From contig DXQT01000024.1 in the NCBI GenBank assembly GCA_019411365.1, forward strand, positions 1 through 34,829: a stretch of DNA of 34,829 nt. The letters are read 5' to 3'. This document shows, in pieces, positions 492-19,503 of the stretch. Position 1 is the first letter of the stretch. Every line of letters starts with the position of its first letter. Below the pieces are notes generated by a model. That model had not been told where the DNA came from, made no database searches, and worked only from the letters and a program-made list of their open reading frames with translations. A program made the translations under genes and the position numbers. The stretch comes from Roseburia sp. Lineage in GTDB: Bacteria > Bacillota_A > Clostridia > Lachnospirales > Lachnospiraceae.

Positions 492-643
492 TGTTATTAG
501 ATAATCGGAAACCTCCTCTTCGTATCTTTATTAATTGTTCAAAATTAACAAGATCATCGAAAACATGTTTTCTTATGCTCTTGTCAATTTTTCACAATTC
601 ATTTTAGTTATATATGAGTTTTCCAATTATCTATTCTAACTTA
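492..643. repeat. Long imperfect inverted repeat, arms-only copy (element 1)
   Basis: Two arms of roughly 70 bases meet at the perfect palindrome GAAAACATGTTTTC (559-572), so there is almost no loop. The inner left arm (533-565) matches the inner left arm of the element at 5610-5851 at 30 of 33 positions by eye, and the right arms are similar over about 70 bases. The central core present in the other copy is missing here. It fills most of the gap between two divergent genes. It could be a small mobile element, a structured RNA or a large transcription barrier; the sequence does not decide. Confidence 0.8.
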
Positions 644-4719: not shown

Positions 4720-5586
4720 TTATCTCAGCAGCCGTGCGATTTCCTCCTTATAAGGCGGAATTGTCTTTTTCGTTTCACCTTCTGCGCAAAGCCACGGGGT
4801 CTCTAAGATTTTTGGCACATCAAGGAACCGCTCGTCATGCACCACCTTATATAAAGGATCAAACCCAATCGTTCCTGCTCCAATATTTGCGTGACGGTCT
4901 TTGTGCGCACCGAGAAGATTCAGGCTGTCATTGATATGAAACACTGCAATCTGATCAAGTCCTAAAACCTCTTCGAATTTCTTGAAAACACCGTCATAAT
5001 CATTGACCAAGTCATAGCCCGCATCGTTTACATGACAGGTATCAAAGCAGACACGCAGACGGTCTTTTTTGTGAACCCCATCATAGATCATTTTCAGTTC
5101 CTCAAAAGTGCGCCCAATCTCGCTCCCTTTGCCAGCCATTGTCTCAAGGGCAATGACTACATCATCATCATTAGCATCCAGAACCATGTTCAGGCCTTTT
5201 ACTGCCTGTGCAATCCCGGCTTCCGTTCCTGCATCCAGCGCAGAACCCGGATGTAACACCAGGATTTTGCTTTGCATCGCTGCGGTACGCTTGATCTCTT
5301 TTTCCAAAAATCCCACCGCAAGTTCAAATGTTTCCGGCTTTACAGTGTTGGCAAGATTGATGATATACGGTGCATGCACGATGATCTCTTCAATCCCTGC
5401 CTTTTTCGCATACTCCCATCCGGCCTCAATATTCAGTTCTGAAATCTCTTTTCTCCTTGTATTCTGCGGTGCTCCGGTATAAAGCATTAAAATATTGGCA
5501 CCATAACTTTCCGCCTCCTTCACAGAAGCAAGAAACATTTCCTTTCCAGCCATTCCCACATGGGAACCAAGTTTTATCTGTGACAT
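4720..5586 (-). CDS. nfo: Deoxyribonuclease IV (endonuclease IV)
   Basis: Class II AP endonuclease that cuts DNA 5' of abasic sites in base-excision repair. All nine metal ligands of the trinuclear zinc site can be matched by motif: His in VHAPY, His in VLHPGS, Glu in [13 protein letters not shown], Asp and His in [13 protein letters not shown], His in VFHINDS, Asp and His in [11 protein letters not shown], and Glu in ILETPW. The length of 288 residues is typical. The start at 5586 is chosen because AAGGAG lies just before it; the upstream in-frame ATG at 5604 overlaps that ribosome site. The inverted-repeat element 5610-5851 occupies the whole upstream gap, so its promoter must lie in or beyond that element. 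Confidence 0.95.
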
Positions 5587-5609
5587 TTTTGTACTCCTTT
5601 TCATCTTTT

Positions 5610-5851
5610 ACTTTACATAGGCGTTTGCGAAACTCTTCATAATCTTCTTTAAATTGTTCAAAATTAACAAAATTTTCGAAAACACGCTTTCGCTACGTGT
5701 CGCTGGTAACGGTACTAAGAAGCCAGTCACAACGATTGTTGTACCTGCCTTCAAGTACCGACCGCTCCCCAGTGTTTTCTCAAGCTTTTGTTAATTTTTC
5801 ACAATTCAATTTAGGTTTCTATGAGTTTCGCAATTGTCTATTTTACTTTAC
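5610..5851. repeat. Long inverted repeat with structured core (element 2)
   Basis: Arms of about 75 bases (5610-5685 and 5771-5851) are imperfect inverted copies, sharing for example GCGAAACTC, AATTGTTCAAAATTAACAAA and GAAAACAC against their complements. The roughly 85-base loop begins with a 40-base core (5682-5721) containing a hairpin (ACACG/CGTGT, 5682-5686 with 5696-5700). A second pairing of CGGTACT with AGTACCG encloses ACAACGATTGTTGT. The core matches element 3 at 35 of 40 positions. The right arm runs over the stop codon of the ydcF-like gene (5843-5845), so insertion or expansion may have changed that gene's 3' end. Confidence 0.85.
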
Positions 5852-6592
5852 ACTGCGGATCAAAAACTTGATCTCTGCACAATATTCCCGCAGCATATTG
5901 TTTGGAAGATAGAATTTCGTCGAATCTGCTGCAATTCCACATACATCAGAGAGCCCCTGTTTTTGGGCGATCTGCAAAGCACGGAACATATGAAAATCAT
6001 TCGTGATAATCCCCACTTCCGCATCTTCCGGCAAAAATTTCCGGCTGTACCGCAGGTTTTCTTCAGTCGTTTTCGATTGATCTTCCAACAGGATCCGTTC
6101 TTTGTCAATTCCATTCTGCATCAGATACTGCGCCATTCCATACGCTTCGGAATAAGGCTCATTTTTCCCCTGACCGCCCGCTACTATACAGACTGTCTCC
6201 GGATTCTCATTCAGATATAAAATTGCCTCATCCAGCCGGTATTTCAATACCACACTCGGTTTATCCGCGTGCACCTGTGCACCCAGCACGATCACATAGT
6301 CCAGATTATCTTCTCCCTGTGCATGCATCTGGCGGATCACCATTCCCTCAATCACAAGAAACGACAGGAAAAATATACCGCACAATATTCCAAATATCCA
6401 CCTAACGATCTGCGGTATCCTGTCCCAAATTCCCATATGAAGCAGACCTGCCAGCGCAAAGAGAATCACTGCAATGCCAATCCATACAATAAAAAATTTT
6501 GTTCCACCGGAACCTGCAATCGCCACGATCAGCCCATAAACCAGACAAAGCAGTCCCAAAATCAGACAGATGTTCATATATTTTTTCCTCAT
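5843..6592 (-). CDS. YdcF/SanA-like membrane protein (DUF218)
   Basis: Three or four hydrophobic segments in the first about 90 residues (near 6-26, 33-52 and 66-86) are followed by a DUF218 domain at about 98-235. Its conserved blocks are DYVIVLGAQVHADKPS, CIVAGGQGKNEPYSEA, RILLEDQSKTTEENLRYS and GIITNDFHMFRA. DUF218 proteins are linked to envelope processes such as vancomycin tolerance (SanA) and cell-wall precursor metabolism (ElyC), but their reaction is not settled. The start overlaps the MFS gene stop by ATGA, so the two are translationally coupled. It is the last gene of the five-gene minus-strand run. The stop codon lies inside the right arm of element 2. Confidence 0.85.
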   Translation of the reverse strand: MRKKYMNICLILGLLCLVYGLIVAIAGSGGTKFFIVWIGIAVILFALAGLLHMGIWDRIPQIVRWIFGILCGIFFLSFLVIEGMVIRQMHAQGEDNLDYVIVLGAQVHADKPSVVLKYRLDEAILYLNENPETVCIVAGGQGKNEPYSEAYGMAQYLMQNGIDKERILLEDQSKTTEENLRYSRKFLPEDAEVGIITNDFHMFRALQIAQKQGLSDVCGIAADSTKFYLPNNMLREYCAEIKFLIRSVK

Positions 6593-19158: not shown

Positions 19159-19186
19159 TTATCGTTGTTTATAATGTTTACGATAA
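19159..19186 (-). promoter_or_regulatory. Inverted repeat just before the ldh ribosome site
   Basis: TTATCGT and ACGATAA (19159-19165 with 19180-19186) are perfect complements 14 bases apart, directly before the AAGGTG ribosome site of ldh. It could be an operator over the promoter (the spacer holds an AT-rich -10-like stretch) or an RNA hairpin beside the ribosome site. It does not match the known Rex consensus well. Confidence 0.4.
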
Positions 19187-19427
19187 TTTTTGAGAGGTAA
19201 ATCTACGCACTGAAATATGAGGGAATGCAATCAAACTTTCGGAGACACGCTCCCGCTACGTGTCGCTCGCAGCGGTACTAAGAACTCACATCCTGCATTT
19301 TATTTCTGATAAATCAGAATAAAACGCAGAATCTGACTTCTAAGAACCGGCGGCTCCACAGTGTCTCCTTCTCTTTTGATTGCATTCCCTCATATCATAT
19401 ACATATTGAAACCTCTCAAAAATCATC
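19182..19427. repeat. Long inverted repeat with structured core (element 3)
   Basis: Arms 19182-19248 and 19361-19427 contain a perfect 21-base complement (19215-19235 with 19375-19395) and a perfect 13-base complement (19186-19198 with 19411-19423). The arm sequence is unrelated to elements 1 and 2. The loop opens with the same 40-base core as element 2 (19245-19284), including the ACACG/CGTGT hairpin and GGTACTAAGAA. It then has its own AT-rich hairpin around TTTCTGATAAATCAGAA, and ends with a CCACAGTGTC that matches the end of element 2's loop. It lies between divergent ldh and dinB. Confidence 0.85.
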
Positions 19428-19503
19428 TTATTCGCTACTATCATGCCCGATTCGGTGAATTTTATGTGTCACAACACACAGGATTGGTATGGGTTATGAC
19501 ATA

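Follow-up and report, generated by a model that had tools for sequence, protein, structure and literature searches.

A putative superfamily of MITE-like mobile hairpins with a common folded core in Lachnospiraceae

Introduction

The closest described systems are the REP and BIME palindromes, the MITEs of IS1182-like (DUF772) insertion sequences, and the structured-RNA repeats of Rfam 15. REPs are 20–40 bp long (PMC3733652), and that text mentions neither Clostridia and Firmicutes nor Butyrivibrio, Roseburia, or Eubacterium.

The window analyzed here is a stretch of 34,829 nt from a Roseburia sp. assembly (GCA_019411365.1, contig DXQT01000024.1, positions 1 to 34,829). A preliminary description of it had noted a long hairpin in which a conserved core was enclosed by arms that differed between two copies. 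It had read this hairpin as either a structured RNA or a non-autonomous mobile element of no known family, and the checks it had suggested included a search for further copies and a covariance model with a survey of covarying pairs. Both of these were run.

The element in the window

A 223-bp mobile element occupied positions 5618–5840 of the window, with 18-bp inverted ends and a 94-nt core at the tip of a hairpin (all parts are given on the plus strand). It was flanked by a perfect 12-bp target-site duplication without assigned strand, TTTTACTTTACA, at 5606–5617 and again at 5841–5852. The left terminal inverted repeat (TAGGCGTTTGCGAAACTC, 5618–5635) agreed at 15 of 18 positions with the terminal inverted repeat used in the search for duplications, and the right one (GAGTTTCGCAATTGTCTA, 5823–5840) was included in the right arm (5776–5840), which pairs with the left arm (5618–5681). 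The core at the hairpin tip (5682–5775) was matched by the covariance model and entered alignments A1, A3, and A4. It contained a conserved mini-hairpin, GC-TTTC-GC, within a large asymmetric loop (5686–5693; helix 2, paired in 98.7% of cells), the 5′ side of P2 with one bulged T (5702–5707, partner 5761–5765), and the 5′ side of P3, CGGTACT (5710–5716), whose partner is AGTACCG at 5754–5760. The preliminary description had given a loop of approximately 85 bases and arms of approximately 75; the hairpin was real, but the arms measured approximately 64 nt and the core 94 nt, and the outermost bases that had been counted as arm were target duplication (5606–5617 and 5841–5852). Its GGTACT/AGTACC closing stem was right and is part of a stem kept family-wide.

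The long hairpins of the window copies are far beyond chance: the RNA fold of two copies had z-scores of −9.90 and −12.95 against shuffles, and the DNA fold of the first copy had z = −7.24. No ORF of at least 100 aa was present inside the 223-bp element, and a transposase gene was absent. In the one copy scanned (window 5400–6100), we found neither a promoter-like or terminator-like site nor an intrinsic terminator (a G+C-rich stem with a small loop and a T run).

A second copy lay at 19163–19436 (plus strand), with an inverted repeat, ATTTTTGAGAGGT, at 19186–19198 and 19411–19423. Its core (19245–19364), also matched by the model, had a longer inner hairpin. As the preliminary description had stated, positions 5682–5721 were identical to 19245–19284 at 35 of 40 positions, and the surrounding arms of the two copies were unrelated; the repeat search extended the likeness of the cores to 52 nt at 85% (repeat family D4). 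A third copy, at about 498–633 (plus strand), had been overlooked. It was coreless, with decayed arms of the same kind as those of the first copy and a junction GAAAACA/TGTTTTC at 565/566 (repeat families D2 and D12).

The 274 bp of the second copy (19163–19436) corresponded to 43 bp in the nearest genome (G001), with flanks 99% and 98% identical. These 43 bp retained a TAAATCTACG stretch, perhaps a remnant of the element, and the locus was therefore rejected as a clean empty site. The third copy and one G001 copy (L026) occupied the same locus, coreless in the window and with a core and other arms in G001. This locus was not counted as evidence of arm swapping, because the right flank had diverged too.

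Ends, target duplications, and a candidate helper

The nearest genome shared 63% of the sampled words of the window assembly, and one of its loci was identical over 3220 bp to a contig of Roseburia inulinivorans DSM 16841. It contained 41 core sites at two or fewer mismatches (29 forward and 12 reverse) and 71 sites resembling the terminal inverted repeat, compared with 0 for both in the backwards control. Both ends were located around 31 cores of this Roseburia type, whose ends read TAG..AATTGCGAAACTC. Direct repeats of 10–12 bp stood at the boundary of the terminal inverted repeats in 10 of the 31 copies (5 perfect and 5 with one or two mismatches), compared with 2.5% when flanks were randomly re-paired; the same rule gave no duplication in the other 21.

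One G001 locus, picked from end sites without a core nearby (L082), encoded a DUF772 protein between the ends TAGGCGTTTGCGAAAC (start) and GTTTCGCAATTACCTA (finish), with an 11-bp duplication, CTATTACACTA, on both sides. The protein matched PF05598 (E = 2.4e-13) and scored 72.2 bits with the NCBIfam IS1182 model, under the cut-off of 270. This IS1182-like element is the likely helper of the Roseburia-type arms. The arms themselves are of a known kind, namely those of a MITE whose ends match an IS1182-like element: they have terminal inverted repeats, duplications, ends common to an autonomous element, and no internal transposase. For this type, the proposal of a non-autonomous mobile element was supported by the inverted ends, the 10–12-bp duplications, an insertion sequence with similar ends, and a locus differing between related genomes. 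That no known family applies is correct for Rfam 15 (no gathering-score match for the window and 12 loci, with only weak, chance-like matches below) and for the literature searched, which gave no recognised description of the repeat, but not for the Roseburia-type arms.

Three places in G001 (L061, L086, and L087) shared one identical coreless junction within identical ends. This suggests that the coreless form itself was copied and, because the junction is common to three loci, that the core is not required for movement. It is also possible that repeated independent deletion gave the common junction, since this sits at a short repeated word.

Elsewhere, ends were read by eye. The ends in G018 were CTCCCATTTCGG-like, with repeats of 8 and 9 bp at two loci (L294 and L295). 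In CAJTEN, the end CAATGTCATTAAGTTAAG was present in six copies, of which four had 9–10-bp duplications (one with a mismatch) and two had none. Most solitary copies of G282 showed neither common ends nor a clear duplication. Five CAJTEN copies (L181, L192, L201, L226, and L233) had a recurring insertion target around GTTCAGCC or TTCACGGC, and in two of the six the bordering repeats were inverted instead of direct, as would result from insertion halfway along another palindrome.

DUF772 was counted once in G045 and eight times in G001, and was not found in eight carriers, several of them high-copy (G018, G052, G008, G064, G055, G005, G049, and G051; some genomes incomplete). Y1_Tnp was counted seven times in G001 and once in G005, and was not found in six carriers with 11–63 copies (G018, G052, G045, G008, G064, and G055; some genomes incomplete). 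On these counts, an IS1182-like enzyme and a RAYT or other Y1 transposase were each rejected as the general mobiliser. The idea that pairs of hairpins form the ends of a larger transposon was likewise rejected, as the ORFs between the more widely spaced copies at L229, L181, and L140 looked chromosomal by eye.

The folded core

The consensus core had an outer part (a closing stem and a large asymmetric loop, which bore the mini-hairpin GC-NNNC-GC on its 5′ side and had a short A-rich 3′ side), an inner part (P2 and P3, CGGUACU/AGUACCG, with two bulged 5′-side bases, AR, between them) and, innermost, kept U·C and C·U mismatches followed by a variable inner hairpin. The kept mismatches appeared as T·C at columns 52–139 in 76 of 116 rows and as C·T at columns 53–138 in 85 of 116, and the loop sequences of the core were kept across genera. 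An ACACG/CGTGT hairpin, which the preliminary description had placed in the core, was nearly invariant in the Roseburia type but not seen in the other aligned lineages, and was omitted from the wide model; what those lineages do keep is the GC-NNNC-GC mini-hairpin (98.7% of cells paired).

The survey of covarying pairs gave strong covariation. In cores drawn from the window and five genomes (31 in all), 87% of cells were paired, compared with 72% in shuffles. In the 31-row plain MAFFT alignment, the covariation score was 0.407 vs. 0.167 for shuffled alignments, with two-sided changes at 21 of 25 pairs. Of the five measures, one (how many pair types occurred) was not above shuffles (149 of 500 reached it). 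A3, the plain MAFFT alignment, took its rows from hits of model R1. Pair counts lean toward structure where alignments were fitted to models (A2 and A4) and many rows came from pair-scoring models; read with this in mind, 116 distinct cores had 88.0% of cells paired (70.7% in shuffles), a covariation score of 0.469 (0.164 in shuffles, and reached by 0 of 500), and two-sided change in 23 of 25 core pairs. Slid structures, the control for this 116-row score, gave 0.03–0.10. The column pair 36–153 read U-A in 63 rows, C-G in 52, and a wobble pair in none, which speaks for DNA rather than RNA.

The arms

Under a single matching rule, we compared the left arm of each copy with its own right arm and with the right arms of other copies. 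Own arms matched best in G052 and G008 (20 copies; median 0.93 for own and 0.63 for other arms, own best in 18 of 20) and in G282 (12 usable of 15 copies tried; 0.78 and 0.60, own the single best in 9 of 12). Most copies in some genomes had a private arm sequence, self-complementary and unlike the arms of other copies. Pairing with the own arm was no better than with the arms of other copies in G018 (17 copies; 0.83 and 0.73, own best in 5 of 17) and in the Roseburia type of G001 (26 copies; 0.78 and 0.73, own best in 4 of 26). Copies have arms in common in both of these sets, in the Roseburia type as after a recent burst.

The core was carried in different ends and arms in different lineages, and the earlier claim of a conserved core with exchangeable arms holds much more widely than the window, among relatives and in the order-wide and named-genome searches. 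Beyond the variable arm, G052 copies had another internal loop (TCTAAATACTACGAAA on its left side), and outside that loop came one more arm specific to the copy. Three loci (L302–L304) were close duplicates with both arms in common.

Some copies deviated from the common form. Five in G001 (L098 and L129–L132) had a second arm type, with palindromes of several hundred bp, a longer inner core hairpin, and GAACTGCCGC/GCGGCAG-like outer repeats. L014 was a mosaic when compared with L002 and L012 (alignment A7), its left and right inner arms coming from different subfamilies, so that the arms mispair; this suggests recombination between copies. In L062, L064, and L073, the core varied in having a longer inner insertion. 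Since the contigs of L064 and L073 stop within it, this could be an independent repeated module.

Distribution among genomes

The search for further copies found the core at many places in the nearest genome and in some of its relatives. Model R1 matched 5 of 40 relatives, all of one genus, and none of 16 genomes from other families of the order. Model R2 matched 17 of 62 genomes of that genus, with a maximum of 63 copies (G018), and 78 of 343 genomes order-wide (36 of 158 genera). All R2 positives among these sampled genomes fell in the family of that genus, which the titles of named genomes indicate to be Lachnospiraceae. A sequence pattern with no arm requirement, two words of which can pair mutually, gave at least 119 stretches in named genomes. 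Among the 80 loci listed, 39 were titled Lachnospiraceae and 8 Butyrivibrio; Roseburia, Eisenbergiella, Hungatella, Falcatimonas, Robinsoniella, and Eubacterium were also present, as were a few assembled genomes labelled, as deposited, Selenomonadaceae, Mogibacterium, and Muribaculaceae.

The sequence pattern had 0 matches in viral contigs, and there was no match in plasmids. Among 50,697 phage records, 7 matched, all unannotated entries named 'Bacteriophage sp.' from faeces. Spread through viruses or plasmids was rejected on these figures. The seven records, from human faeces (MT838743.1, MT836432.1, MT839590.1, and four others), are complete or partial matches to the element and could be bacterial contigs assigned wrongly, or the edges of prophages.

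Wobble pairs, orientation, and placement

The ratio of G·T to A·C mismatches was 91:83 in arms of the Roseburia set, 316:264 in other arms, and 72:78 in the core, where 39 G·T fell at one pair that was never A·C. This pair, columns 43–149, was U·G in 39 of 115 cells and never C·A; it is strand-specific, the pattern predicted for RNA or for a fold tied to one strand. Wobble pairs show no clear sign of RNA; the 316:264 ratio leans slightly to the RNA side. A folded-DNA role for the core is slightly favoured over RNA. No protein partner of the core was found.

Genes were called as simple ORFs. The neighbours of 75 classified named loci were oriented (−,−) in 24, (+,+) in 22, (+,−) in 17, and (−,+) in 12, after 19 loci at edges and 5 within ORFs had been left out; these named loci showed no gene-orientation bias. 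Orientation was also unbiased among 15 copies of G282, in which the left gene pointed toward the copy in 10 and the right gene in 9, and 0 of the 15 examined lay between divergent genes. Replication-strand bias was rejected for the same genome, where the matches listed divided roughly evenly (22 vs. 17, on the assumption that the contig is circular and its origin is at dnaA). Copies were nearer gene 3′ ends in 56 of 95 cases, compared with 138 of 339 random intergenic points. Among Roseburia-type copies of G001 (L001–L030), the left neighbour was on the minus strand, pointing away, in 23 of 28, and copies often stood directly before an apparent ribosome-binding site.

Two model scans gave 15 convergent pairs (plus then minus) less than 500 bp apart, 2 tandem pairs (L179 and L118), and 0 divergent pairs; one of the 15 convergent pairs (L120) has a partial second copy. 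Among the further matches listed, at least 6 convergent pairs (one in G018, one in G052, two in G289, and two in G301) and at least 2 tandem pairs (G289) were present.

Discussion

We consider it somewhat probable that these elements form a superfamily of non-autonomous, MITE-like mobile hairpins of Lachnospiraceae with a common folded scaffold, putatively acting as folded single-strand DNA. The observations from which we start are the inverted ends, the duplications, the copy number and spread, the covariation, the variety of arms, the differing locus, and the coreless copies with a common junction. Each unit with readable ends would be MITE-like, having terminal inverted repeats flanked by target duplications of approximately 8–12 bp, and would be moved in trans by any transposase fitting those ends, probably an IS1182-like enzyme in the Roseburia type. 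The superfamily would be united not by its ends but by the central scaffold, in which internal loops are conserved and helices are free to vary; the fold rather than the linear sequence appears to be what is kept. Such a scaffold may be a passenger module on several kinds of ends. It would act as a folded single DNA strand (an extruded or lagging-strand hairpin) bound by a protein, and not as RNA. A DDE transposase needs no folded strand, which counts against the folded-DNA part of this reading.

A first alternative, which we regard as unlikely though worth weighing, treats the scaffold as a functional, structured RNA (approximately 100–200 nt) carried on MITEs and acting in trans or in 3′ untranslated regions, so that only pairing matters and helices vary. 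Conserved loops with covarying helices are consistent with such an RNA, as are the strand-specific U·G at columns 43–149, the excess of copies nearer gene 3′ ends, and the absence of G282 copies from between divergent genes. Against it stand the lack of a clear G·U excess, the even sense and antisense placement at the 75 classified loci, and the one scanned copy without promoter-like or terminator-like sites, together with the lack of an Rfam match. The structured RNA of the preliminary description was accordingly right in being structured, but wobble pairs, orientation, and the promoter scan gave no clear sign of RNA.

It is slightly more doubtful that the core itself is the mobile unit, recognised as a hairpin and entering the tips of existing hairpins (palindromic MITEs or terminators), with arms that belong to the target. 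The same core within unrelated arms, the copy-specific arms of G282 and of G052/G008, the coreless palindrome at 498–633 that closes exactly at the core's expected place, and the two CAJTEN copies bordered by inverted repeats would all fit such insertions. The parts that recur outside the core argue the other way: by eye, G052/G008 have the second conserved loop beyond a variable arm, species with unlike arms have in common a small internal loop beside the closing stem, and the related L302–L304 have arms as well as core in common. Moreover, none of the orthologous places offered an empty hairpin whose arms match (the second-copy locus in G001 is not one), and Y1 transposases were not found in the six carriers with 11–63 copies.

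That there is no selection on the fold, the arms being kept complementary by template-switch correction of quasi-palindromes and the core being their slowly changing middle, is very unlikely: it would account for core pairs that covary with hardly any wobble state in between at certain columns, and for the close copies L302 and L303 differing by a change that is matched on both arms, but correction should remove the U·C/C·U mismatches and the AR bulge, which are kept, as are the loop sequences across genera.

We tentatively suggest, at a level of confidence well short of that for the superfamily, that the folded strand of the element is recognised by its shape, with stems renewed per copy but internal loops and tip conserved, a tip common to unrelated transposon ends family-wide, and a dedicated, putative hairpin-binding partner. 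Within one family, bacteria of the human gut and the rumen may carry dozens of copies at gene borders. In draft genomes, contigs end at some of the copies, and every copy places a long hairpin beside genes. Ordinary transposition does not preserve a fold from genus to genus and yet rewrite its stems, sometimes copy by copy, and the question of which protein or process reads the folded strand is now testable.

The superfamily as a whole does not fit any of the REP, IS1182-MITE, and Rfam definitions tested. The structured-RNA repeats of Rfam 15 are alike in having conserved secondary structure with covariation, and none of their families matched. REPs and BIMEs of the GTAG and CGTC families (PMC3733652) are likewise numerous intergenic palindromes whose close copies are mostly opposite in orientation; however, the present elements measure approximately 100–500 bp (223 bp for the window copy) rather than 20–40 bp, and, unlike REP/BIME systems with their RAYTs, several carrier genomes were those in which Y1 transposases were not found. 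The MITEs of IS1182-like (DUF772) insertion sequences resemble the Roseburia type in inverted ends, 10–12-bp duplications, lack of ORFs, and high number, whereas the folded core described here recurs with other ends, including in genomes where DUF772 was not found, and its arms can be specific to a single copy.
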